From positions 1 through 45,042 of the forward strand of contig JAFRRK010000076.1 in NCBI GenBank assembly GCA_017428115.1: a stretch of 45,042 bases of DNA, written 5' to 3'. The translations under genes were made by a program, and so were the position numbers. The DNA is from Bacteroidales bacterium. Its GTDB lineage: Bacteria > Bacteroidota > Bacteroidia > Bacteroidales > P3. This document shows positions 5,772 through 22,936 of the stretch, piece after piece (position 1 is the stretch's first letter; every line of letters begins with the position of its first letter). The notes beneath the pieces are model-generated. The model saw nothing but the letters and a program-made list of their open reading frames with translations, made no database searches and was not told the origin of the DNA.

Positions 5772-6914
5772 ATGAAAAAACTTATACCCATTATTTTTGC
5801 AACACTGCTCATTACCAGCTGTTATACCGTCACACCCATCAATGCCGACTCGGGCAAGGCCAATGGGGGTGGCATATTCTACGCCCTACCGTTCACACAA
5901 ATATGTGTCGATGTCACCTATCAGTACTACGACCTCAGCGAGGCCATTTTCAGCCAGTATGCCTCCGAGATGCTCGCACTAGACAATTTTGACGTGGAAC
6001 GTCCCTACCGCATAATAAACATCGAAACCTCGTACAATGTCACTGCCGACCCCGACCACTACTATTTCATCACCCCTAACGGCATCTCTGTGCAGGTAGA
6101 CAGTCGCCAACTGCTACGGTCCGTCGGCCTCACCCCCCAAGAGGCTGCCACCGCCCTAGCCAGTGTCACCAACCACACTGACACCACCGACCGTCTCACC
6201 CCCACAGATGCCAAGCTGGTGCTCCATAATGCCACTGCCGACAAGATGCTTCCAACATACAACCTTTACGACCGCACCGACACCTTCTACGTGCGTGGCG
6301 ATCGTCCCGGGCACCCCACAGGCTACTCCACCAAGAAAGCCCCCCGCAGCATTCGCCAGAGAGCGCAAGCCGCTGCCGAAGAATTTGCAGAGCTTGAAGA
6401 CAGCCGTGCCGACATCACCGTCTCAGACCGATACACTCCCGAAGGCAAAACACAGATGCTACGCCAAATCGAAGAACGCCAAGCTCAAATACTCATCCAA
6501 TTCATTGGACGCCCCATTACAGAAACAGCGCATTTCTTCTTACAGCCAAACCTCACTGGCAAGGACGACGACACGCTCCAACGCACTGTCCTCTTCTACT
6601 TCTCTAGAGCAGAAGGCATCTGTGAAAGCGACGACTACGACGCGCTCCCCGTAACCTGCACTCTCCGACCTGACCAATCCATCAAAAATGTCCGCCAATA
6701 CAGCCGCCCAAAGAAAAGCATACTCCCCTGGCGAAACGGCAACTTCAAATACCGACTCCCCTCCCAAGCACTCCTATCGCTACAATGCGAACTTTTCGAC
6801 TACCAAGTGACCTTACCCGTAGCACAGTTTGGCCCTATTATCGACCTTCCACACGACCGATTCAAAGCACTTTTCGACCCCACTAGTGGAGCAATAATCT
6901 ATTACCAAAACTGA
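5772..6914 (+). CDS. DUF4831 family lipoprotein
   Basis: 380 residues. The N-terminus MKKLIPIIFATLLITSCYTV is a lipoprotein signal with the lipobox ending at Cys17. The block beginning YALPFTQICVDVTYQYYD (about 36-53) and the following YRIINIETSYNVTADPDHYYFI match my recollection of DUF4831, a Bacteroidetes family of unknown function. A charged, helix-prone middle (about 195-245, QAAAEEFAELEDS) may be a short coiled coil. ATG 5772 was chosen because the longer upstream reading would overlap the symporter gene and bury the lipoprotein signal. Tight spacing on both sides suggests an SSS-DUF4831-rnz transcription unit. Confidence 0.8.
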   Translation: MKKLIPIIFATLLITSCYTVTPINADSGKANGGGIFYALPFTQICVDVTYQYYDLSEAIFSQYASEMLALDNFDVERPYRIINIETSYNVTADPDHYYFITPNGISVQVDSRQLLRSVGLTPQEAATALASVTNHTDTTDRLTPTDAKLVLHNATADKMLPTYNLYDRTDTFYVRGDRPGHPTGYSTKKAPRSIRQRAQAAAEEFAELEDSRADITVSDRYTPEGKTQMLRQIEERQAQILIQFIGRPITETAHFFLQPNLTGKDDDTLQRTVLFYFSRAEGICESDDYDALPVTCTLRPDQSIKNVRQYSRPKKSILPWRNGNFKYRLPSQALLSLQCELFDYQVTLPVAQFGPIIDLPHDRFKALFDPTSGAIIYYQN

Positions 6915-6970
6915 AACTGGCCACATATCATCTCTTCCACCCTTAGCAACCCTTTATAACCCCATCCACC

Positions 6971-7762
6971 TTGAATTTCTATACCACCATACTCGGGTCG
7001 GGTGCCGCCATCCCAACAGCAGCACGCCATTGTAGCGGCCAAGCGGTCAATATCAATGGATTTCGCATACTACTAGATTGTGGAGAAAACACACAGACTC
7101 AAATACGCGTCTTCCACCAGCGCCTGCAGGCCATCAAACTCATTTGCATCACCCACCTGCATGGCGACCACTTCTTTGGTCTTCCTGGACTCATCAGCAG
7201 CATGCACCTCTGCGGTCGCAAAGAGCCACTCGACATCTTTGCCCCGACGGGTATAGCACAAGCCATGCAGACCCTCATCGAGATCTCGGGCTGCCACATC
7301 GACTTTGAAATATGCTACCACGAGCTTTCCCACACCGAAGGAAACCCACTTATTTTCGAAAACAATCTCTGCCGGGTGTACTCCTTCCCCCTATTACATT
7401 CAGTACCCACCTACGGCTACCTCATCGAGGAGAAACCCCGTGGCAAAAATCCTCCAAGACGATATGCCTACTGTACCGACACAGCCTATACCGAAAACAT
7501 ACTGCCCTATATCGAGCAGGTCAACCTCCTATGCCTCGAAAGCACCTTTAACAACGAATATGCCCAGATAGCCGCCGAAAAACTGCACTGCACCGCTGCC
7601 CAGGCTGCCACTTTGGCGCTCAAGGCGAATGCCAAACAGCTGCTCCTAACCCACATCAGTGCTCGTTTCAAAGAGCCCGAGCCACTACTTGCCGAAGCCA
7701 CAGCCATCTTCCCCAACACCCTGATAGCCTCCGACGGCGCACAGATAGAAGTACACTATTGA
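6971..7762 (+). CDS. rnz: Ribonuclease Z (tRNase Z), short form
   Basis: Endonuclease that trims tRNA 3' trailers. Zinc site: HLHGDH (62-67), H143 in FPLLHSVPTYGY, D170 in YAYCTDTAY and H228 in LLTHISARF. The early LGSGAAIPT block is also typical. The protein is only 263 residues against about 300 for most bacterial RNase Z, because the segment between H143 and D170 is very short: the flexible exosite arm that clamps tRNA appears to be missing. The start is TTG 6971, since the reading frame opens directly into the first beta strand (NFYTTILGSG). The stop is 9 bp from the left end of MITE copy 1. Confidence 0.93.
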   Translation: MNFYTTILGSGAAIPTAARHCSGQAVNINGFRILLDCGENTQTQIRVFHQRLQAIKLICITHLHGDHFFGLPGLISSMHLCGRKEPLDIFAPTGIAQAMQTLIEISGCHIDFEICYHELSHTEGNPLIFENNLCRVYSFPLLHSVPTYGYLIEEKPRGKNPPRRYAYCTDTAYTENILPYIEQVNLLCLESTFNNEYAQIAAEKLHCTAAQAATLALKANAKQLLLTHISARFKEPEPLLAEATAIFPNTLIASDGAQIEVHY

Positions 7763-7771
7763 CTATACCTT

Positions 7772-8391: not shown

Positions 8392-11300
8392 ATGGCTAAT
8401 TTTTTGTCAAAACTATTTGGCACTAAGGCAGACCGCGACCTCAAGGAGGTGCAGCCTCTGCTCAATGCCACTCTGAAGGTTTATCCCGAAATACAGAAGC
8501 TCAGCAACGACGATCTGCGTGCGAAAACCCTCGAGTTCAAGGAACGCATCCGCAAGGAAGTAGAATCCGAAGAAAACGAACTTGCCGCTCTCCGCCAACG
8601 CATCGAAGAAGAGTACGATATGCCCGTCGACGAAAAAGTGGAGATATACAATCGCATCGACAAGCTTGAAAAGGAATCGTACGACAAGACTCAGAAGGTG
8701 CTCAACGACATACTTCCCGAGGCTTTCAGCGTGGTCAAGGAAACCGCCCGCCGTTTTGCAGAGAACCAGCAGGTGGTGGTTACCGCTACCGACCACGACC
8801 GCGAACTGGCCGTAAGGCTCAACAACGTACACATCGACGGCGACAAGGCCATATACGACAACAGCTGGATGGCCGGCGGCAACATGATTACATGGGACAT
8901 GGTGCACTACGACGTGCAGCTCATCGGTGGCATAGTGCTGCACAGCGGCAAGATTGCCGAAATGGCCACTGGCGAGGGCAAGACCCTCGTCGCCACCCTG
9001 CCCGTATATCTCAACGCACTGCCCGGCAAGGGTGTCCATGTGGTGACCGTCAACGACTACCTCGCCAAGCGCGACTCCGAATGGATGGGCATGCTCTATG
9101 AGTTCCACGGCCTCACTGTCGACTGCATCGACAAGCACGAACCACACAGCGACGAACGCAAGGCAGCCTACAACGCCGACATCACCTTCGGCACCAACAA
9201 CGAATTCGGCTTCGACTATCTGCGCGACAATATGAGCCGCAACCCCGAGGAGCTGGTGCAGCGTGGCCACAACTATGCCATCGTCGACGAGGTCGACTCG
9301 GTGCTCATTGACGATGCACGTACCCCCCTCATCATCTCAGGCCCCACAGGCAAGGGTGACGACGACCAGGAGTTCGACCGATTCAAGCCTGTCATCGAGA
9401 AACTCTACAACGCCCAACGTGTGCTGGTCACAAAGGTGTTGGCCGATGCCAAGACCGGCCTTGCCGAACATCCCGACCCAAAGCCCGAAGAGGAATGCGC
9501 CAAGTTGCTATTGCGTGCCTATCGTGGCCTGCCAAAAAACAAGGCATTGATTAAATTCCTCTCCGAAACCGGCATCAAGAGCATCCTGCAACGTACTGAG
9601 AATTTCTACATGCAGGAGCAAAACAAATACATGCACCTCATTGACGACGACCTATACTTCGTCATCGATGAGAAACAGCGCAGCGTGGAGCTTACCGACA
9701 AGGGTATGGACTTCCTCACCGGACTGGGCGAAGACCGCAACTTCTATCAGCTGCCCGACATCGGCAGCATGATTGCCGAGTTGGAGCAGGAAAACATCTC
9801 ACCCGAAGAAAAAGCAGCCCGCAAGGAGAAAATATATAACGACTTCGCCATCCAAAGCGACCGAGTACACACTGTCGACCAACTGCTTAAAGCCTACGCC
9901 CTATTTGAAAAGGATGTCGACTATATCGTTGACGAGAACAAGCAGGTGAAGATTGTCGACGAGCAGACCGGTCGTATTATGGAAGGCCGACGTTGGAGCG
10001 ACGGATTGCATCAGGCTGTCGAAGCCAAGGAAAACGCCAAAGTAGAAGCCGCCACCCAGACCTATGCCACCATCACCCTGCAGAACTACTTCCGCATGTA
10101 TAAAAAACTGGCAGGTATGACCGGTACGGCTGAAACCGAAGCAGGCGAATTTTGGGACATCTATAAACTCGACGTAGTCGTCATCCCCACCAACCGACCC
10201 ATTGCCCGTATCGACATGGACGACATGATCTACAAGACCAAGCGCGAAAAATACAAGGCCGTCATCGACGAGGTGGAACGGCTCATCGGTCTGGGACGTC
10301 CCGTATTGGTAGGTACCACTAGTGTCGAAACCTCCGAACTACTAAGCAAAATGCTTAAAATGAAGCGTATCCCTCACGATGTGCTGAATGCCAAACTACA
10401 CCAGAAAGAGGCTGAAATTGTCGCACACGCTGGCGAACCAAGCCACGTTACCATTGCCACCAACATGGCAGGACGTGGTACCGACATCAAGCTGAAAGGC
10501 GGTGTGCGCGAAGCCGGCGGTCTTGCCATCATAGGTACTGAGCGCCATGAGAGCCGCCGTGTAGACCGTCAGCTGCGAGGCCGTGCCGGCCGTCAGGGAG
10601 ACCCCGGCAGCTCACTATTCTTCGTGTCACTCGAAGACGACCTTATGCGTATATTTGGCTCCGACCGCATAGCCAGCGTTATGGACCGCATGGGCCTACA
10701 AGAAGGCGAAGTCATACAGCACAGCATGATCACCAAGCAGATTGAGAAGGCTCAGAAAAAGGTGGAAGAAAACAACTTTGGCATGCGTAAAAGGCTTCTG
10801 GAATATGACGACGTGATGAACAATCAGCGTACCGTGGTCTACAACAAGCGTCGCAACGCCCTGTATGGCGACCGCCTGAGCATCGACATCAGCAACATGT
10901 TCTACGACACCTGTGCCCTCATCTACGACGACGCTATTGAAAACCACGACTGGGAAGGGTTCAAAATGGAGATGATACGCGTGTTTGCCTTCGATGTGCC
11001 TTTCAGCGAGAAAGAGCTCTTCAATGCCCGCCATGACGATGCCGTGCAGAAACTTTACGACAAAGTTTTCGAAGCCTACAAGGAACGCATGCAGCGCATC
11101 TGCGACCTCGCCTACCCCTTCATCAAGCGCATCTATGAGAACACCCGCTACGTCAACGTTGCCTTCCCCATCACCGATGGAAAGAAGACCCTCAATGTCG
11201 TCACCCCTGTCAAGAAAAGCTACGAAAACAAAGGACGCGAGGTGCAGCTCAGCATCGAGAAAGGCATCACCCTCGCCATTATCGACGACCTTTGGAAAGA

Positions 11301-11712
11301 CCACCTTCGCGAACTCGACGAACTGAAGACCAGCGTACAAAACGCCAGCTACGAACAGAAAGACCCGCTATTGATTTACAAATTCGAAAGCTTCAACCTC
11401 TTCGAGAAGATGCTGCTTGAAATCAACCGCGAGATTAGCTCCTTCCTCAGCCGTGCAAGTCTGCCCGTCAAAGAAGACGACGACATGCGCGAAGCCCGCC
11501 AACCTCGCCGCGACAACCGCCAGATGCGTGAGAGCCGCTCCAACGATGGCGCCACCGAAACCCAACGCGCCATGGACCAAGCCGCTCGCCAACAAACTGG
11601 CGAACGTCCCAAGCCCATGCCCGTACGTGTCGAAAAACGCGTTGGACCCAACGATCCCTGCCCCTGCGGCAGTGGCAAGAAATACAAAAACTGCTGTGGC
11701 CGCAACGAATAG
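8392..11712 (+). CDS. secA: Preprotein translocase ATPase SecA
   Basis: Motor ATPase that drives proteins through SecYEG. Walker A is MATGEGKT (191-198), Walker B IVDEVDSV (about 297-304); the preprotein cross-linking domain and the second NBD ([25 protein letters not shown]) are intact. The C-terminus has the zinc/SecB-binding motif [14 protein letters not shown]. At 1106 residues it is about 200 longer than E. coli SecA, with an extra block in the preprotein-binding domain (about 335-425) and a long charged C-terminal linker, as is usual in Bacteroidetes. The gene stands alone between the MITE and a convergent terminator. Confidence 0.98.
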
Positions 11713-11733
11713 AAAGCAGCACACCCCTACAAC

Positions 11734-11768
11734 CACACAGCCGCCCAAGATGCTTGGACGGCTGTGTG
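11734..11768 (+). terminator. Terminator after secA
   Basis: Stem CACACAGCCG/CGGCTGTGTG (11734-11743 with 11759-11768) continues inward with CCAAG/CTTGG, then CTTTTATGG. It lies between two convergent genes and may work on both strands. Confidence 0.7.
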
Positions 11769-11802
11769 CTTTTATGGCAGTAGCCAAGGATTACTACGAC
11801 GG

Positions 11803-12642
11803 CTAGAATTGAATGGCCAATGGCTTCGGAAAATGCATGCCACAGAGCGTAAGATGCTCTTTGCGGGCACGGTCAAGTACAGCACGACGGGTGATAACCG
11901 CCTGGGCGGGGTCGGCATCAAAACGGGCACAGAATTCAGGATGTTCCAACTGAAGGGAAACGGCATGCATAATGTCGCCAGCTATAAGCACCCCGCCCAA
12001 ATCATAGATAGTATGGCCAGGCGTGTGGCCCGGTGCTGCAATCGAGCAAACACCTTCCACAAGAGTGTCACCAGGACTGAAGAGATGGACACGTTCGCCA
12101 TAGCTACGGGTCAACAACGATGCCAAATCAGCATTGCCCAACAAACCTGATGCACATGCCTCATATTCGGGCTGCGGTATATGAAGGATTGCTGCTGGGA
12201 ACATGGCAGTGCTGTCGGGGGCAAAAAGACCGCCCACATGGTCGAAATGGAGGTGCGTCAAACAGATGTCGGTAACCTGCTCACGAGCGACTCCCAAACT
12301 ATCTAAAGCTTCCAGCAGTCTGCCTCCTTTTGCCGAGCCTAAACCCGCATCAAACAGAACGACGTGTCCCTCCTGCTGAAGCAAAAAGACATTGAAACCC
12401 GCCTCAGCCTGGCCTTCAGGAAGAAGGCTGTCTAACAGGGCATCGTCAAAACCTTTAAACAATTCTGCCGACATGGTCTGCGGACCATCCTGTATGCCAT
12501 AGAGGCATAGCCCGTCGGCTGACGGGATGGTAAAAAGATAATCAGAACCACTCTGCTCTGTTGTCTCAGATTTGGTCTGACGACCTCCGCAGGCTGATAT
12601 CAACAAACAGATAAGTCCGGTAATCAATGCAATCTTCTTCAT
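11803..12642 (-). CDS. Metallo-beta-lactamase-fold hydrolase, lipoprotein
   Basis: 279 residues starting at the ATG at 12642, which opens directly into the signal MKKIALITGLICLLISACGG (lipobox ISAC, Cys18). The zinc motif THLHFDHVGG carries H130, H132, D134 and H135; further ligands are H206 or H210 in APGHTPGHT and D223 in IAGDIM. This is the glyoxalase II/N-acyl homoserine lactonase-like branch of the superfamily. The substrate is unknown. The frame extends further upstream, but that extension would overlap the preceding gene and hide the signal. It is last in a minus-strand run after the transglutaminase-like lipoprotein (40 bp gap). Probably a periplasmic, lipid-anchored hydrolase. Confidence 0.85.
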   Translation of the reverse strand: MKKIALITGLICLLISACGGRQTKSETTEQSGSDYLFTIPSADGLCLYGIQDGPQTMSAELFKGFDDALLDSLLPEGQAEAGFNVFLLQQEGHVVLFDAGLGSAKGGRLLEALDSLGVAREQVTDICLTHLHFDHVGGLFAPDSTAMFPAAILHIPQPEYEACASGLLGNADLASLLTRSYGERVHLFSPGDTLVEGVCSIAAPGHTPGHTIYDLGGVLIAGDIMHAVSLQLEHPEFCARFDADPAQAVITRRAVLDRARKEHLTLCGMHFPKPLAIQF

Positions 12643-16098: not shown

Positions 16099-16926
16099 AT
16101 GGATAAACTGATTATCACCACCGCCATCTGTGGCGCAGAAGTCACCAAAGAGCAAAATCCCGCTGTCCCCTACACCGTTGAAGAGATAGTTCGCGAGGCA
16201 AAATCGGCAGTCGATGCCGGTGCCGCCATCGTGCATCTGCATGTACGCTACGACGACGGCACACCCACCCAGAGCCGCGACCGTTTCCAAGAATGCGAAG
16301 AGGCCATCCTTAAGGAATGCCCCAACGTCATCCTCATCCCATCCACCGGCGGCGCCGTGGGTATGACACCCGAAGAACGCCTACAAAGCACCGACACCAC
16401 CCCCCTGCCCGAAATGGCCACCCTCGACTGCGGCACCTGCAACTTCGGCGACGAGATATTCGACAACACCATGCCCACCATGCGCGCCTTCGGCAAACGT
16501 ATGATGGAACGCGGCATCAAACCCGAGTACGAGTGCTTCGAGATGGGCCACCTCGACACCATCCTCACCATGGCCCGCAAAGGCCAGGTGCCCGGGGCCC
16601 CCATGCAGTTCAACTTCGTGCTCGGTGTGCCAGGATGCACCCCCGCCACCGTCGACAACCTCTGCTGGCTGGTTAAGAACATCCCCGCCGGCAGCACCTG
16701 GACCGCCACAGGCATCGGCCGCTATGCCTTCCAACTGGCTGCGCCCGCCATCGTCATGGGCGGCAACGTGCGCGTAGGTTTCGAAGACAACCTCTACCTC
16801 GAACGCGGTGTGCTGGCCAAGAGCAACGGCGAACTGGTTGACAAAGTGGTGCGCATGGCCAAGCTGCTCGGCCGCGAAGTGGCCAACAGCGATGAGGCAC
16901 GCGAGATACTCGGCCTCCGCCGCTAA
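16099..16926 (+). CDS. kce: 3-keto-5-aminohexanoate cleavage protein (BKACE family)
   Basis: Zinc enzyme that in lysine fermentation condenses 3-keto-5-aminohexanoate with acetyl-CoA to give 3-aminobutyryl-CoA and acetoacetate. 275 residues. Visible features: the zinc histidines in AAIVHLHVR (H46, H48), the PSTGGAVGMTPEERL block, FEMGHLDT, and GGNVRVGFEDNLYLERG with the third ligand Glu229. The wider BKACE family acts on various beta-keto acids, so the exact substrate is not certain. The other lysine-pathway genes (kamA, kamDE, kdd, kal) are not adjacent, which is unusual. Divergent from ruvC. Confidence 0.88.
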   Translation: MDKLIITTAICGAEVTKEQNPAVPYTVEEIVREAKSAVDAGAAIVHLHVRYDDGTPTQSRDRFQECEEAILKECPNVILIPSTGGAVGMTPEERLQSTDTTPLPEMATLDCGTCNFGDEIFDNTMPTMRAFGKRMMERGIKPEYECFEMGHLDTILTMARKGQVPGAPMQFNFVLGVPGCTPATVDNLCWLVKNIPAGSTWTATGIGRYAFQLAAPAIVMGGNVRVGFEDNLYLERGVLAKSNGELVDKVVRMAKLLGREVANSDEAREILGLRR

Positions 16927-17234
16927 CGCCACCCCTACCCTTTAATAACACACAATCACCACCACCCATCGCCTACTTCGTCTGAATACTGCTCGTTGGC
17001 CAATTTTTTGCCCCCTCCTTGCCGACTCAAAGAGGGTAAACACATGTCAATCAGTCAGAAGAAGACGATGGGCCATTGGTAGATACGACAGAAGGAGAAG
17101 TCTATCGCACTATCGATGGAATCTATTAACAACAATTAGGAATGCTCGATGAGCAGCAATTAAACAAAAGAAAGATTCAAAAAACTTTGAACATTTCATT
17201 TTCATTTTTGTACAATATCACATAATCACATTTT
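16927..17234 (+). other. Intergenic region before the deiminase operon
   Basis: 308 bases without a credible gene. It is C-rich at the start, with no strong terminator after kce. No clear TAnnTTTG element is seen upstream of the deiminase ATG; the closest is the degenerate TCATTTTTG about 25 bp before the start. The operon promoter is therefore not confidently located. Confidence 0.5.
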
Positions 17235-19637
17235 ATGCATCTTTCGAAGAAGTTTTTTCTTACGCTGACGGCAACGGCACTGGCCTTTGCCGCAACAGCA
17301 CAGAACGCCATAACGCGCGACGATATGCTGCGTGAGTGGCGACAGACCAAACAGAAACGCGACATCTCGCTCCAGGCCCAATACTCCAACATACCGCTCG
17401 GCGAGGCAGCAGCGACACCCAAGAGCGAGAAGGCTCTGCCCGACGACCGTGTGTGGTTCCCCGGCGAGTGGGAGGAGGTGAAAGCCATCGTGGTGACACC
17501 TTACTACAGCTACGACCCCGACACCAATCTGGGCAGCGGCTACTTCATGGCCGACCCCATGGTGACAGGCATAGCAGAATATTATAAATATAACTACTCA
17601 CGTGGATGGGAGTCGTTGAACCAATATGGACCCTACCGTAGCACGATGGATACTACCACGACCTTTGGCCAGGTGTTCTTCCGCCTGATGGACGGCATAC
17701 AGCTAGGCCACGCCCAGGCATGGGTGCGTGTGGAAAAGGAGGAGGACACCGCCACAGTGCTGCGCACACTGCGCCGCATGAACCTGCGCCACGACAATGT
17801 GCGCTTCATCGTGGGTGCCGGCAACTCGTTCTGGTATCGCGACTGCGGCCCTATCTGTTTTTACCACGGCGACCAGGACAGTGTGGCGATGATGGACTTT
17901 GAGTATTACCCGGGACGTGCGCTCGACGATTCGCTGCCCTCACTCATCTATCGCCAGATGGGCATACCCAACTATATCAACAGCATTGAGTGGGAAGGCG
18001 GCAACTGCCTGGTGGACGGCGCTGGATTTCTTTTGTCGAGCGATGCCATCTACAGCAACAACAGCGACACCTATGGACAAGTGACTTGGGACGGCCAGAA
18101 TGTGAACAGCATCCACTACACCACCAAGCCGCGTCTCACTAACGCTCAGACCCGCCAGGCTCTTGCCAGCCTGCTGGGGCAGCGCGAGACCCATATACTG
18201 CCTGCCTACCAATACGACGGGGGCACCGGACATATTGACCTCTATGCCGACATGTGCGAAGAGAATGGTTTTGTATTCTCGGTGATGCCCAACGACTATC
18301 GCAACTGGACAGACTATCGTACCGGCTCGCGCAATATCGACTCGCTCTGCTCATACACCTCCATTTTCGACCGCCCCTACTACAAGACCACTATCCCATT
18401 CCCCAGCAAAGATAACGGCTCCAACTTCAACAGCCAGCTGGAGTATAACGACAGCTACACACGCACCTACAGCAACCACACTTTTGTCAACGATGTGATA
18501 TTGCAGCCCTGCTTCAGTGCTGTGGCCAACGGCGTTCCTACAGCACTGTGGGACCGTAACAACATAGAGCTGCTGAAAGCCGCCTACCCGGGCTATACTA
18601 TCTATCCTGTGGACGTGCGCGATTTCGACGGTTCGGGCGGGGCCATACACTGCGTCACCAAGCAGATACCTGCCGACAACCCCGTGCGTATCCTCCATAA
18701 GAGCATCGTGGGCAGCGCTGTAGACATGCGTGGCAGCGACATCCCCGTTAGCGCCATCATCACTAACCGCAGCGGCATAGCCCAGGCCATCTGTGCCTAC
18801 CGCTATAAGTACTCCTGGGCCAACGGTGCCAGATACGACTACAGCGAATGGGACTCAATAGCCATGACCGCCAACGGCAACAAATATTCCTGCCTGCTGC
18901 CCACCGCCAGCATCAACGAACGTATCATGGACACCACCTACACCCCCGGCAGCTATGTGGACAGCACCCTTGTTTCCACCGACACCTCTTACACCCTCGA
19001 CAGCACTTTTGCCTACTTCGACACGGTGAGCCTCGACAGCGTGTATACCTACGACACCACCTACAGCTACGTATTCCACTATAACTACGACACCATTAAC
19101 TATATCGACACCGTGACCTCACTGCACGATACGTTGATTACGGTCGAATACTTCATCAGCGCCACATCGAACAATGGCAAAACCATCACTAAGCCGATGA
19201 CCGCCAACCATGGGGGCTACTACAGCTTCTATTTCGACGGGACATTGAAGCAACTGGACAGCATGCAGTACGATTTCACGACCGAGCCACGTCCGGCCAC
19301 AGATATCACTTTCGTCTTTGATGCCAACCGCACCACGCGCGACACCAGCACCACACCTGTGGTAGCCATTGCAGAGACCGCGGACGACAAGGGTTTCGGA
19401 CAGTTCTACCCCAACCCCGCCACCGAGCAGGCCAAGATTCAGATAGACCTAGGCAATGGCGGTATATGGAACGTAGACATCATCGACCAGGCAGGCCGCA
19501 TCGTACACACCACCCAGCTACAGACGGCAGGCAGTATTGTCTTCGCCATACGCACTGACAGCCTGCCCGCTGGAATCTACACCGTGCGCTTTGCCTCTGG
19601 TGGTAAGAGCATCGCCCGCCGGCTGGTGGTGAAATAA
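17235..19637 (+). CDS. T9SS-secreted peptidylarginine-deiminase-type (PPAD-like) enzyme
   Basis: 800 residues. Signal peptide 1-22 (cleavage near TAQ). The deiminase fold follows, with Asp203 in FWYRDCGP, the EGGNCLVDG block (254-262), His333 and Asp335 in TGHIDLYAD, and nucleophile Cys473 in GGAIHCVTKQ. This is the guanidine-modifying layout of agmatine deiminases and of the Porphyromonas gingivalis PAD (PPAD), which turns arginine into citrulline. An Ig-like domain (about 484-685) contains a Tyr/Asp/Thr/Ser-rich insertion (about 557-636). Residues 715-800 (FYPNPATEQAKI to RRLVVK) are a type A T9SS sorting domain. Signal peptide plus sorting domain favour a secreted protein-modifying role over agmatine catabolism; the substrate is inferred. 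First gene of a three-gene unit. Confidence 0.87.
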   Translation: MHLSKKFFLTLTATALAFAATAQNAITRDDMLREWRQTKQKRDISLQAQYSNIPLGEAAATPKSEKALPDDRVWFPGEWEEVKAIVVTPYYSYDPDTNLGSGYFMADPMVTGIAEYYKYNYSRGWESLNQYGPYRSTMDTTTTFGQVFFRLMDGIQLGHAQAWVRVEKEEDTATVLRTLRRMNLRHDNVRFIVGAGNSFWYRDCGPICFYHGDQDSVAMMDFEYYPGRALDDSLPSLIYRQMGIPNYINSIEWEGGNCLVDGAGFLLSSDAIYSNNSDTYGQVTWDGQNVNSIHYTTKPRLTNAQTRQALASLLGQRETHILPAYQYDGGTGHIDLYADMCEENGFVFSVMPNDYRNWTDYRTGSRNIDSLCSYTSIFDRPYYKTTIPFPSKDNGSNFNSQLEYNDSYTRTYSNHTFVNDVILQPCFSAVANGVPTALWDRNNIELLKAAYPGYTIYPVDVRDFDGSGGAIHCVTKQIPADNPVRILHKSIVGSAVDMRGSDIPVSAIITNRSGIAQAICAYRYKYSWANGARYDYSEWDSIAMTANGNKYSCLLPTASINERIMDTTYTPGSYVDSTLVSTDTSYTLDSTFAYFDTVSLDSVYTYDTTYSYVFHYNYDTINYIDTVTSLHDTLITVEYFISATSNNGKTITKPMTANHGGYYSFYFDGTLKQLDSMQYDFTTEPRPATDITFVFDANRTTRDTSTTPVVAIAETADDKGFGQFYPNPATEQAKIQIDLGNGGIWNVDIIDQAGRIVHTTQLQTAGSIVFAIRTDSLPAGIYTVRFASGGKSIARRLVVK

Positions 19638-19668
19638 ACAATAGTCATATATTTTATTCATTACTGCC

Positions 19669-21297
19669 ATGAAACGAGCTATCTTTTTCCTACTGCTCCT
19701 GCTGGCATCCGCCACCCACCTACGGGCACAGCTGGACAGCATCTATATCTCCGGCACACAAATTGACACCTCCAAGGTATATGATGGCACCACTGCCGCC
19801 CATCTTGTCACCATGGGCAATTGGCCATTACTGCCATACAGCCAGGTGTATATCAGTGCAGAAGCACACTATCTGGATGCCTCCGTGGGCGAGGATAAGC
19901 CTGTGGTGGTCACCTTCGCACTAAGCGGACCTGACGCCGCACGCTACTATACTCCGTCGAGCATCATCCTTTATGCCGACATCACAGCTCGCCGGTTGAC
20001 GGCGGACAGTGTGCAGATTCAACCACGACGCGAATACGACGGCACAACCAACTGTGCCGTGCTTTCCGAAGGGGTGTTGCACGGCATACTGCCCGCCGAC
20101 ACCGTGTGGCAGACAGTGACCGCCCACTATGCCAACTCCCATGTGGGGATGTTCAAACCTATTGAAGTACTGCACACCCTCCATGGCCCGCAGGCTGCCA
20201 ACTACTACGTTGATGATACCATCCTGCGGATGGGCACTATCACCCGCCGCAACGTTACCCCCAGCCTGCCCAACATCAGGCTGGTAAAAGAGTACGACGG
20301 CACCGACTCGGTCCAAATACTTGCCCAGCCTACACTCTGCAATGCAGTCGACGGCGACACAGTGCACCTCACCTTTACCGCCCATTACGACACCCCTGAA
20401 GTGGGCGACGACAAGACCATCTTCACCAACTACGGGTTGGTGGGTTCGGCATCCAACAACTACTTGTTAGTGTCCGATAGTGTCTATCCGCAGCTGGGTA
20501 GAATAGTGCCCCCCACAGTCTTCGACACACTGCAAGATGGCCAACAATTCGTTGCCACAGAATATGGCTTCTGTGCCGACCATCAAGCCTCCCTGCGCTA
20601 CCACCTGCGCCAAGGCGAGCCCGTCAGCTACCGCATTATCTTCTCTGTTCAGACTATGGCAGACCTCTTTGCCGACACGGCATGGAAAGCCTGCGACACC
20701 AGCACCAACCTCGTCACATTCCACATCCCTGCCGACTGTCCCTCCGGACACTATTCGGCCACCGTCCAGTTTGTCAGCATTGCCTCTGTTGTAAGCTCTT
20801 TCCCCATCACAATCAATGTCAACCTCGCCAACAGATACCTAGTGAGGGTATTTGACGATGTAATCAGCATCGACAATAGCGGAAGCATCGACAACTGTCC
20901 CAACCGTTTTCGCACCTTCCAATGGTACCACAATGGCGAGGCGATACCCAATGCCACACTGCCTTACTATCAGGCATCTGGCAACCTCGACGGACAATAT
21001 AGCGTAATGGTGAACAGGGGCACAGACGATGAGGCGATGGTATGTCCATTATCTTTCACACATGTAGACAAGGCCACCGTAAGGCTGATGCCCTCGCCCG
21101 TGGCCACCACTACCACAATCAAGCTACAAGGCTTCGCCGAAGGTGCACACCATCTGCGTGTGTTCAACAGCAACGGAGTTATAGTGCAAACCACCACCTT
21201 TGTGGGAGAACGACATAAGCTTGACCTTTCCCCACTTCCACAAGGCACCTATCTTATCACTGTCGACGGACACTCTATTAGAACCATTAAAATGTAA
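19669..21297 (+). CDS. T9SS-exported protein with three YDG repeats
   Basis: 542 residues. Signal peptide about 1-20 (ATHLRAQ). Three tandem repeats of about 70 residues open with VYDGTT (37-42), EYDGTT (122-127) and EYDGTD (208-213); each contains V-G-x-x-K and ends in a G-x-x-A-x-x-Y-type segment and I-T/I-V, as in the YDG/MBG beta-sandwich repeats of surface adhesins. A beta-rich middle (about 285-465) is unassigned. The C-terminus (about 472-542, MPSPVATTTTIKL to LPQGTYLITVDG) is a type A T9SS sorting domain. It starts 31 bp after the deiminase stop and ends directly against the OmpA gene start, so co-transcription is very likely. Probable structural or binding surface protein. Confidence 0.85.
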   Translation: MKRAIFFLLLLLASATHLRAQLDSIYISGTQIDTSKVYDGTTAAHLVTMGNWPLLPYSQVYISAEAHYLDASVGEDKPVVVTFALSGPDAARYYTPSSIILYADITARRLTADSVQIQPRREYDGTTNCAVLSEGVLHGILPADTVWQTVTAHYANSHVGMFKPIEVLHTLHGPQAANYYVDDTILRMGTITRRNVTPSLPNIRLVKEYDGTDSVQILAQPTLCNAVDGDTVHLTFTAHYDTPEVGDDKTIFTNYGLVGSASNNYLLVSDSVYPQLGRIVPPTVFDTLQDGQQFVATEYGFCADHQASLRYHLRQGEPVSYRIIFSVQTMADLFADTAWKACDTSTNLVTFHIPADCPSGHYSATVQFVSIASVVSSFPITINVNLANRYLVRVFDDVISIDNSGSIDNCPNRFRTFQWYHNGEAIPNATLPYYQASGNLDGQYSVMVNRGTDDEAMVCPLSFTHVDKATVRLMPSPVATTTTIKLQGFAEGAHHLRVFNSNGVIVQTTTFVGERHKLDLSPLPQGTYLITVDGHSIRTIKM

Positions 21298-22878
21298 ATG
21301 CGAATGAAAAAAGAGATCCTCACCCTAACACTTTTGGCAGTCCTCACTAGTGCTACAGCACAGATGACCGACCATATCCACAACATACAGACAAACGTTG
21401 GTGGCGGCATTCACACCCTCCTTTACTCCCCCGTGGACGGCATCCACACCATCGCCCTAGGTGGCCTGGCCGAAATACAATACCAATATATGTTCAACCA
21501 TCATTGGGGTGTTGCCATTGGCGCACAGTTCTCCACCCTGCGCAGCAGCAGCACGTACAACTATCAGTATACACTGCCCGGCACCATGCTGCCTGGTGCC
21601 CTCTACCCAGCCGACCTCACTTACGAATTTCGCAACTGGAACGAACAGCAGAACGTCAACCTCCTAAGCATCCCGCTGCAAGCCGTATTACGAGCCCCAA
21701 TCAGCGTCACCAGCGCATTCCAGATGGCAATTGGTGCCAGCTTGAGCCATCCCTTGGGTTCCTACTACAAAATAGTGGGCGGTCGCTACGTCACCACTGC
21801 CTATATGCCCCATACCAACGTCACCTACACCGACATGCAGAACCACGGACTAGGCACCTACAACGGAGACAAGATGTCGTCAATCCTAGACATCACTCCA
21901 TTCTATTGCGCACTGCATGCCGACCTAGGATTCGTGTTCAACTTTAACAAGAACGCCGGACTCTATCTAGGTCTTTATAGCCACTATAGCCCTGCCGATA
22001 TCAACCCACACAGCGATGCCAATGCCCACATGCAAGGACTGAGCACCTTTGCCTCTGACCGTGTGGCCACAGTCCACCCGCTAGAGGTTGGCATCAAGCT
22101 GGGTATGCGTTTTGGCTGCGGCAAAGATGTCGATTGGAAAGCAATAGCTGCTGCCGAAGCTGCAGCAGCGGCACAGGCTGAAGCCGAGCGCATCGCCGCC
22201 GAGCGCAAGGCCGAAGAGGAGCGTCTGGCTGCCGAACAGCGCGAGCGCGAGGAGGCCGTGGCACGCGCACGTGCCGAAGCTGAGGCCAAAGCCAAAGCAA
22301 CCGCCGACAGCTTGGCCCGCATACATGCCGCCGAACTGGCAAAAGCCAAAGCGCAGGCTGAAGCAGAGGCAGCAGCCCGCCAACGCATCCAAGCACGAGC
22401 CGACTCTCTGGCGAAAGCACAGGCCGAGGCCCTAGACCGTGCCCGTGCCGAAGCTGAGGCACGTGAACAAGCCGAAGCAGAAGCCCGCTCTAGAGCGCGC
22501 GCAGAGCAACGGGTGCGCGAAGAAGCAGCCTTCGTAGCTGGATACAAAGATATCGCCTATTTCGAAACAGGCAAAGACACCCCCATATTTGGTGAGCTCA
22601 ACGAAGATTCGTGGGAGAATCTGCGCAACGTCATGTCGCGCTATCCCGAAATCACCGTCACCGTCACCGGCCATACCGACAACGTGGGCAAGCCAGCCAG
22701 CAACCAGGCCCTCTCTCAGCGTCGTGCCGACAACATCAAGGCTATGCTGGTAGCCAAGGGTATCGACGGCAGCCGCATACATGCCATTGGACGAGGCGAC
22801 AAAGAACCCATATCCTCCAACAAGACAAAAGAAGGACGGGCTAAAAACCGCCGTATCGAAATCACCATTGGCAAATAG
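21298..22878 (+). CDS. OmpA-family outer-membrane protein with long charged stalk
   Basis: 526 residues. Signal peptide (to about TSATAQ), then a beta-strand-rich region (about 25-275) fitting an outer-membrane barrel. Next is about 130 residues of Ala/Glu/Arg/Lys-rich helix (280-412), then an OmpA peptidoglycan-binding domain (about 415-526) with TGHTDNVG and LSQRRAD; Asp461 and Arg476 match the two diaminopimelate-binding residues of OmpA. It should connect outer membrane and cell wall. The ATG at 21298 touches the previous stop codon; ATG 21304 is an alternative start. Last gene of the deiminase unit, closed by a terminator. Confidence 0.88.
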   Translation: MRMKKEILTLTLLAVLTSATAQMTDHIHNIQTNVGGGIHTLLYSPVDGIHTIALGGLAEIQYQYMFNHHWGVAIGAQFSTLRSSSTYNYQYTLPGTMLPGALYPADLTYEFRNWNEQQNVNLLSIPLQAVLRAPISVTSAFQMAIGASLSHPLGSYYKIVGGRYVTTAYMPHTNVTYTDMQNHGLGTYNGDKMSSILDITPFYCALHADLGFVFNFNKNAGLYLGLYSHYSPADINPHSDANAHMQGLSTFASDRVATVHPLEVGIKLGMRFGCGKDVDWKAIAAAEAAAAAQAEAERIAAERKAEEERLAAEQREREEAVARARAEAEAKAKATADSLARIHAAELAKAKAQAEAEAAARQRIQARADSLAKAQAEALDRARAEAEAREQAEAEARSRARAEQRVREEAAFVAGYKDIAYFETGKDTPIFGELNEDSWENLRNVMSRYPEITVTVTGHTDNVGKPASNQALSQRRADNIKAMLVAKGIDGSRIHAIGRGDKEPISSNKTKEGRAKNRRIEITIGK

Positions 22879-22898: not shown

Positions 22899-22936
22899 GA
22901 AAAAAGGTGTGGTAGATTCTGCCACACCTTTTTTTC
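22899..22936 (+). terminator. Rho-independent terminator of the deiminase operon
   Basis: Perfect stem AAAAAGGTGTGG/CCACACCTTTTT (22901-22912 with 22922-22933) ending in a run of seven T, 20 bp after the OmpA stop. A perfect 12-bp palindrome AACGTATACGTT (22947-22958) lies just beyond. Confidence 0.92.

Follow-up and report, generated by a model that had tools for sequence, protein, structure and literature searches.

A PPAD-related deiminase gene with kce as its constant neighbor in a Bacteroidales genome, where it probably meets a separate ydg-omp pair

PPAD, the protein deiminase of Porphyromonas gingivalis, bears a C-terminal sorting domain (CTD) for the type IX secretion system (T9SS). 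As stated in PMC4893104, PPAD has usually been treated as the unique bacterial citrullinating enzyme and tied to rheumatoid arthritis; in the same source, Arg152, Arg154, and Tyr233 are reported to bind the terminal carboxylate, Arg152 mattering more than Arg154. For another group of T9SS substrates, namely those with a type B CTD, PorP-like barrels are reported to hold the secreted protein together with PorE (PG1035-PorP-PorE; SprB-SprF; PMC9143113), and PorE is described as carrying an OmpA domain (PMC7192894; structure 6top). The stretch of DNA treated here (45,042 nucleotides at full length; hereafter the window) is contig 70 of the genome of a Bacteroidales bacterium (2.78 Mb, 80% complete; GenBank assembly GCA_017428115.1, contig JAFRRK010000076.1), and its nearest named records are metagenome-assembled genomes of rumen and gut Bacteroidales, including Candidatus Colimorpha. 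An earlier note, made from the sequence alone, regarded three consecutive genes in the window, which encode a PPAD-like deiminase (dei), a protein with YDG domains (ydg), and a protein with an OmpA domain (omp), as possibly making up a dedicated surface citrullination module. We instead regard it as probable that two independent two-gene units meet here: one is dei with its upstream neighbor kce, which encodes a 3-keto-5-aminohexanoate cleavage enzyme, and the other is ydg with omp, which adjoins the deiminase gene in a part of the genus.

Each gene was searched for in 119 genomes of the rumen/gut genus, and adjacency was tallied by script (cut-offs of 1e-60 for dei, kce, and omp and of 1e-15 for ydg, at which more divergent ydg and omp sequences would escape). 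The deiminase was detected in 90 of the 119 genomes, and kce was located directly upstream of dei in 85 of the 87 genomes possessing both. In the two exceptions, kce and dei resided on different contigs, and in G120 each of them lies no more than 200 bp from the beginning of its contig. Among the loci taken from named records (cited by L numbers), kce was followed by dei in 63 of the 65 with room downstream, while the other neighbors changed from locus to locus (ruvC-kce in 25/39, dei-ydg in 19/69, and omp-glycosyltransferase in 8/17). A second count of kce upstream of dei amounted to 54 of 71 named-record loci, a figure kept low by the overlap limit on stop-to-stop deiminase frames starting inside kce; 7 of the 17 misses (L042, L047, L057, L059, L068, L071, and L074) do have an adjoining kce. 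The gap between the two genes was 50 bp or shorter in 36 of 66 loci. It is 308 bp in the window, as against 12 bp in L036 and 18 bp in L037, the two loci that match the window best. The product of kce scored 406.2 bits against NF052387 (cut-off 382) and matched PF05853 with an E-value of 8.6e-103. Altogether, the constant genomic partner of the deiminase gene is kce, which the earlier note overlooked. In L047 (positions 7074-7770) and L057 (7062-7689), the kce match was split into two frames, possibly by a frame break, and the deiminase frame downstream was intact. Beyond the copy in its own genome, the 308-bp spacer of the window yielded only a 36-base match in the compared loci (E 0.009); the idea of a mobile element in the spacer was thus set aside, as the compared loci gave no useful match.

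The two genes downstream of dei turned out to be associated with each other rather than with dei. Of the 39 genomes with omp, 37 had it no more than 500 bp behind ydg. On the other hand, dei was followed by ydg within 3 kb in only 20 of the 90 genomes with a deiminase (with omp behind ydg in all 20), and no ydg adjoined dei in the other 70. The ydg-omp pair was placed away from dei in 17 of the 37 genomes, 13 of which have dei elsewhere and 4 of which gave no dei match at the cut-off. G020 has the pair and the deiminase gene on one contig, 12 kb apart and in opposite orientations. In the named records, the dei-ydg-omp order was present in 19 of 80 loci, with gaps of 38-1374 bp between dei and ydg by the chosen starts. 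A terminator-like hairpin was found in 7 of these 19 gaps, as compared with 1 of 380 gaps generated by single-base shuffling (20 shuffles for each of the 19), and in none of the 19 gaps between ydg and omp. The window represents the tightest case, and its 31-bp gap free of a hairpin makes the co-transcription of dei and ydg plausible there, albeit this is not the rule elsewhere.

The above counts bear on the proposal that the deiminase, YDG, and OmpA proteins constitute one surface complex citrullinating proteins. The three-gene order does recur in relatives of the window (20 of the 119 genomes and 19 of the 80 named-record loci), so that the refuting outcome named in the earlier note, an order kept in no relative, did not occur. 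In the window, the three genes are 31 and 0 bp apart and the dei-ydg gap showed no terminator, and in L125 from the sister genus a gene for an OmpA-domain protein of 384 amino acids (6245-7399) lies divergently right beside the deiminase gene, though it matches the omp of the window weakly. Such recurrence has to be set against the 70 of 90 genomes in which dei lacks a neighboring ydg, the 17 genomes in which ydg-omp is found apart from dei, the hairpins in the dei-ydg gaps, and L041 (10594-12255), in which a deiminase gene and an OmpA gene occur with no YDG gene between them. We therefore consider a single citrullinating complex highly unlikely; the dedicated module did not survive the comparison, and the adjacency counts and the hairpins in the dei-ydg gaps rule out the three genes as a conserved unit. 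An order-level search of 295 genomes gave matches in at least 2, the own genome included, with three candidates scored per genome.

In our favored interpretation, ydg would provide a T9SS surface protein and omp a barrel of the OmpA type that is anchored to peptidoglycan; the pair probably supplies an adhesin or a structural component of the cell surface together with the outer-membrane protein that holds it. PF00691 detected an OmpA domain in the omp product (E 3.8e-19). The predicted structure of this protein comprises beta-strands within residues 26-277, followed by two helices (280-346 and 372-414) and then the OmpA domain, with a pTM of 0.48 that leaves the placement of the domains open, and the fold matches were the peptidoglycan domains of OprF and OmpA and the OmpA barrel. 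The description of this protein by the earlier note as a barrel, a stalk, and an OmpA domain is hence borne out for the OmpA domain and for the strands and helices of the model, but the barrel scored 22.5 bits in the window protein, below the Pfam cut-off of 28.7, and exceeded the cut-off in both relatives scanned (L119 and L120). The ydg-omp pair resembles the PG1035-PorP-PorE and SprB-SprF sets in combining a CTD-bearing secreted protein with a putative holder, a barrel in the outer membrane. It differs from them in that the CTD is of type A and the barrel is OmpA-type and joined to an OmpA domain in one protein. The Pfam scan of the window proteins gave no match to PorP/SprF, and we claim a resemblance only. 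In L121 (1789-5685), the T9SS partner of omp has InlB B-repeats and a sorting domain in place of YDG; the N-terminal modules of the partner seem exchangeable. The only hits of a PADLOC anti-phage scan were four MotB/ZorB matches, all to the OmpA domain of the omp product, and an anti-phage system was dropped as a candidate.

We then turn to the deiminase itself. PF04371 (PAD_porph) matched residues 160-479 with an E-value of 2.6e-30 (106 bits against a cut-off of 25), and the sorting domain was recognized by both PF18962 (E 1.2e-10) and TIGR04183 (E 2.9e-11). The own genome contains a match to the T9SS translocon protein SprA (532 bits) and a single deiminase match, five further matches spanning the sorting-domain end only. 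In a search with a profile of 42 aligned rows (the window and 41 relatives), PPAD was the top solved relative with an E-value of 8.2e-25, both its catalytic and Ig-like parts being aligned, and agmatine-deiminase-type chains came next at 3.5e-15 and weaker. The predicted structure (mean pLDDT of 80.5) retrieved PPAD chains at ranks 1 to 7 (best E 1.1e-25, target TM 0.81 over 612 columns), followed by agmatine deiminases from 8.5e-17. Thus, PPAD ranks above the agmatine deiminases by profile as well as by fold. The guanidine-modifying fold is shared with agmatine deiminase (AguA). A secreted agmatine deiminase, or a deiminase of another guanidine compound, would be suggested by a weak NCBIfam match to agmatine deiminase (TIGR03380), but the score of 38.9 bits is far under the family cut-off of 381.8 and the Ig-like domain is held in common with PPAD. 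To our knowledge, the agmatine deiminase family has neither an Ig-like domain nor an export signal. We give this alternative very little credence. The comparisons support a deiminase of the secreted type that is related to PPAD, retains the catalytic residues, and bears a T9SS signal.

Residues were mapped onto PPAD by reading the profile alignments. The five catalytic residues Asp130, His236, Asp238, Asn297, and Cys351 of PPAD correspond to D203, H333, D335, N419, and C473 in the window, and Trp127 and Arg154 to W200 and R228; all seven are invariant in the 42 aligned rows, including the four (D203, H333, D335, and C473) that the earlier note had recognized. Arg152, Tyr233, and Ile234 are replaced by P226, G330, and T331, and consequently the carboxylate clamp of Arg152, Arg154, and Tyr233 is incomplete, R228 alone remaining. 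With the catalytic residues kept, the enzyme should still be able to catalyze deimination, but half of the clamp that gives PPAD its specificity is missing. The designation as PPAD-like thus stands for the architecture, the catalytic residues, and the T9SS signal, but not for the Arg152 and Tyr233 positions, and a PPAD-like specificity for C-terminal arginine is not secure from these alignments. The enzyme could still be a true functional equivalent of PPAD, namely a strict C-terminal-arginine protein deiminase acting alone without partners, given the identical order of catalytic domain, Ig-like domain, and CTD, the best fold match, and the invariant equivalent of Arg154. Furthermore, position 226 is variable among the relatives and reads Arg in L095, L105-L108, L111, and L114, which thus have an arginine at the Arg152 position or beside it. 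In the window, on the other hand, the more important arginine and the tyrosine ligand of the carboxylate (PMC4893104) are Pro and Gly, and the relatives with the RxR motif form a clade of their own (see below). We judge strict equivalence to PPAD unlikely.

Deiminases of this kind are not confined to the genus. When 395 genomes from across the class were searched with a profile and two candidates were scored per genome, matches were detected in at least 58 genomes (the own genome included) and at least 34 of 197 genera. Among the 24 class loci examined (L127-L150, own excluded), 16 are PPAD-like, with the motif YNRP(T)RP and [NH]HID at the catalytic histidine, and 8 are of a second type, here termed the GR class, with YY[DP]GR and GT[GE]HID; the window has YYPGR and GTGHID. 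The class proteins are alike in the catalytic and Ig-like region of the profile, and 8 of the 24 have the GR/GTxH motif in common with the window, but they are mostly of ~580-650 amino acids, 16 of them bear RxR, and no kce is present in their flanks of ~1.5 kb. A T9SS sorting domain was over the cut-off in all 10 class members tested. We analyzed 47 hand-chosen sequences phylogenetically (23 from the genus, the sister genus, and Prevotellaceae-labelled records and 24 from the class search, with neither PPAD nor an outgroup). The 16 RxR sequences, the 8 GR-type class sequences, and the 23 remaining sequences grouped into three separate clades, each with a support of 1.0. Midpoint rooting placed the 8 GR-type sequences with the 16 RxR sequences, and therefore the GR class is defined by its motif and is not a proven clade; it is perhaps ancestral. 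Judged from their domains, secreted-type PAD proteins are not rare in Bacteroidia and the enzyme class is already known, while the GR class seems to be uncharacterised.

Compared with PPAD (PDB 5ak7 and 4yt9), the window protein shares the catalytic and Ig-like domains and the seven residues listed above and differs in Pro226, Gly330, and Thr331, in its length of 800 amino acids with an 81-residue insert, and in kce as its genomic partner. Some homologues deviate further. L095, L105, L106, L107, L108, L111, and L114, mostly labelled as Prevotella or Prevotellaceae, have an additional Arg close to the clamp (SRHSR and RRYDR in those displayed) and no kce adjoining the deiminase homologue; the C-termini of L105 and L114, the two that were read, appeared by eye to be unlike a T9SS signal. 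Second deiminase copies in G022 (contig 28, 647-2308) and L092 (8016-10178) have no kce directly upstream and look degraded or inactive, with stops within the match in the former and Asn at the Asp335 position in L029 and L092.

The insert is located in the Ig-like domain. In 23 deiminases (the window and 22 named-record loci), it measures 37-86 amino acids, and at least 62 in all but L045, while the remaining aligned named-record rows have 0-22 amino acids at the site (the counts leave out L001, L007-L012, and L030-L035, which repeat genes represented by another locus or are truncated, and rows with an insert shorter than 35 amino acids). Asp is followed by Ser or Thr at 190 of 214 occurrences in the inserts; outside the inserts, these proteins show it at 250 of 1073. 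The 23 inserts contain 177 D[ST][AILMVT] triplets against 35.2 expected when each insert is shuffled, and such triplets are reported as the O-glycosylation motif, of the D(S/T)(A/I/L/V/M/T) type, in Tannerella (PMC8550257). As the background, only 28 of the 2197 frames of at least 150 amino acids in these loci have five or more triplets within 70 amino acids, and 23 of the 28 are the deiminases. In the model, the insert forms the tip of a beta-hairpin (strands 563-576 and 619-632), with residues 579-617 at pLDDT <50 and thus predicted to be disordered. In 18 of the 23 insert carriers ydg adjoins the deiminase gene, the exceptions being L041, L043, L054, L059, and L060 (the locus of L059 is cut by a contig end), and L056 and L057 have ydg but lack the long insert. 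This association lies among close relatives and proves no function. In L059, a neighboring secreted-looking protein (10895-12511) ends in HDTTYVDV-type repeats that resemble the insert.

As to the metabolic setting, the alpha subunit of lysine 5,6-aminomutase was found in 107 of the 119 genomes and in 0 of 14 controls, and in the own genome its gene lies beside those of the beta subunit and a CoA-transferase subunit. With the equivalog cut-off passed and lysine 5,6-aminomutase, the pathway step searched, being present, Kce qualifies as a lysine-fermentation enzyme as far as sequence criteria go. From these data we infer that Kce would work in the cytosol in lysine fermentation, while Dei would be exported through the Sec pathway and the T9SS. 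At the cell surface or outside, Dei would hydrolyse the guanidinium group of arginine to yield citrulline and ammonia, with Asp203 and Asp335 holding the guanidinium, Cys473 attacking it, and His333 serving as the acid/base. With half of the carboxylate clamp left, the expected substrates are short arginyl peptides or free arginine, rather than those fitting the strict C-terminal-arginine preference of PPAD. The enzyme likely contributes to basic amino-acid use by lysine- and arginine-fermenting gut Bacteroidales, and may act in extracellular peptide use or ammonia release.

A split arginine-deiminase pathway, in which citrulline made by the surface enzyme would be burned for ATP by ornithine carbamoyltransferase (OTC) and carbamate kinase (arcC), appeared attractive after contig 80 of the own genome (C80; L117, 9739-14748) was found to encode, one after another and with no arcA among them, carbamate kinase, OTC, an AspT-type permease, and an outer-membrane-like protein. 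The OTC exceeded its cut-off, while that of putrescine carbamoyltransferase was missed. Carbamate kinase exceeded its cut-off in 96 of the 119 genomes and in 2 of the 14 controls; matches below the cut-off were disregarded, since at E 0.001 the search matches all 14 control genomes. The pathway was, however, weakened as a candidate by a divergent ArcA-like arginine deiminase found in 111 of the 119 genomes (including G000 contig 68), with which an internal route to citrulline is probable. The ArcA-like proteins match most of the model length, with best matches of 169-238 bits per genome, none passing the curated cut-off of 489. We regard the split pathway as quite unlikely.

Returning to kce-dei as a unit that joins amino-acid fermentation to the secreted deiminase, we note several points that weigh against it. 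All the adjacency counts come from one genus and are not independent. No kce match was obtained in 3 of the 90 genomes with dei, and no dei match in 14 of the 101 with kce. Kce was not found in the 26 loci of the sister genus and the class (L116, L125, and L127-L150; L116 and L125 contain the same gene), mostly with flanks of ~1.5 kb, and did not adjoin 10 of the 71 named-record deiminase genes with room upstream (L092, L095, L101, L102, L105-L108, L111, and L114), which are mostly labelled as Prevotella or Prevotellaceae or are otherwise divergent. With terminator-like hairpins in 7 of 66 kce-dei gaps and the 308-bp gap in the window, a single transcript is not assured. As Kce is expected inside and Dei outside the cell, adjacency need not mean one pathway, and with the ArcA-like protein in most genomes, the cell probably makes citrulline inside, so that the secreted enzyme is probably not needed for it.

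The features of the locus are compiled in Table 1. The three reading frames on the plus strand, with the gaps of 31 and 0 bp described by the earlier note, were confirmed, as were the sorting domain on the deiminase, the three YDG domains with a sorting domain on the second protein, and the terminator-like hairpin with its T-run behind the third gene, which a simple hairpin scanner had not listed. The signal peptides of the three proteins were judged from the N-termini by eye only. Besides kce, the earlier note did not mention Asn419 as the fifth catalytic residue, the Ig-like domain, or the sequon-rich insert.

Table 1. Features of the kce-dei-ydg-omp locus, with positions in the window
Feature	Positions	Strand	Evidence
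kce (BKACE family), 3-keto-5-aminohexanoate cleavage enzyme, lysine fermentation (by sequence criteria)	16099..16926	+	NF052387, PF05853, neighbor counts
kce-deiminase spacer, 308 bp	16927..17234	.	sequence
Deiminase with PPAD architecture and T9SS signal, 800 aa	17235..19637	+	ORF, Pfam/NCBIfam, profile, fold
Deiminase catalytic domain, residues 160-479	17712..18671	+	PF04371; W200, D203, R228, H333, D335, N419, C473
Insert in Ig-like domain, 81 aa, residues 557-637	18903..19145	+	9 D[ST][AILMVT] sequons
T9SS type A C-terminal sorting domain of deiminase, residues 725-799	19407..19631	+	PF18962, TIGR04183
ydg, T9SS-type protein with three YDG domains, 542 aa	19669..21297	+	Pfam, neighbor counts
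omp, predicted barrel, helical stalk, and OmpA peptidoglycan-binding domain, 526 aa	21298..22878	+	Pfam, model, fold matches
Intrinsic-terminator-like hairpin and T-run behind omp	22903..22936	+	13 pairs at 22903-22931, then T

A search of titles and the beginnings of abstracts, with most subscription journals outside its reach, gave no account of a dei-ydg-omp set or of a kce-deiminase pair. We tentatively put forward, as a possibility that is for now rather doubtful, that a genus-wide kce-deiminase operon couples internal lysine fermentation to the secreted enzyme, an arginine deiminase representing a second, uncharacterised substrate class (GR/GTGH, half of the clamp being left), and that in one subclade a densely O-glycosylated hairpin holds the enzyme away from the cell surface. 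The correction of the module redirects co-purification to ydg-omp, the pair that stays together. Relatives of the same architecture are present in most of the sampled genomes of the genus (90/119) and in at least 58 of the 395 class genomes, and the two motif classes differ exactly at the site where PPAD reads the C-terminal carboxylate, a contrast by which the origin and purpose of bacterial deimination can be tested through comparison. The constant partner kce points to amino-acid metabolism. If the proposal is true, extracellular deimination would serve nutrition in rumen and gut Bacteroidales and would not be an oddity of Porphyromonas virulence.

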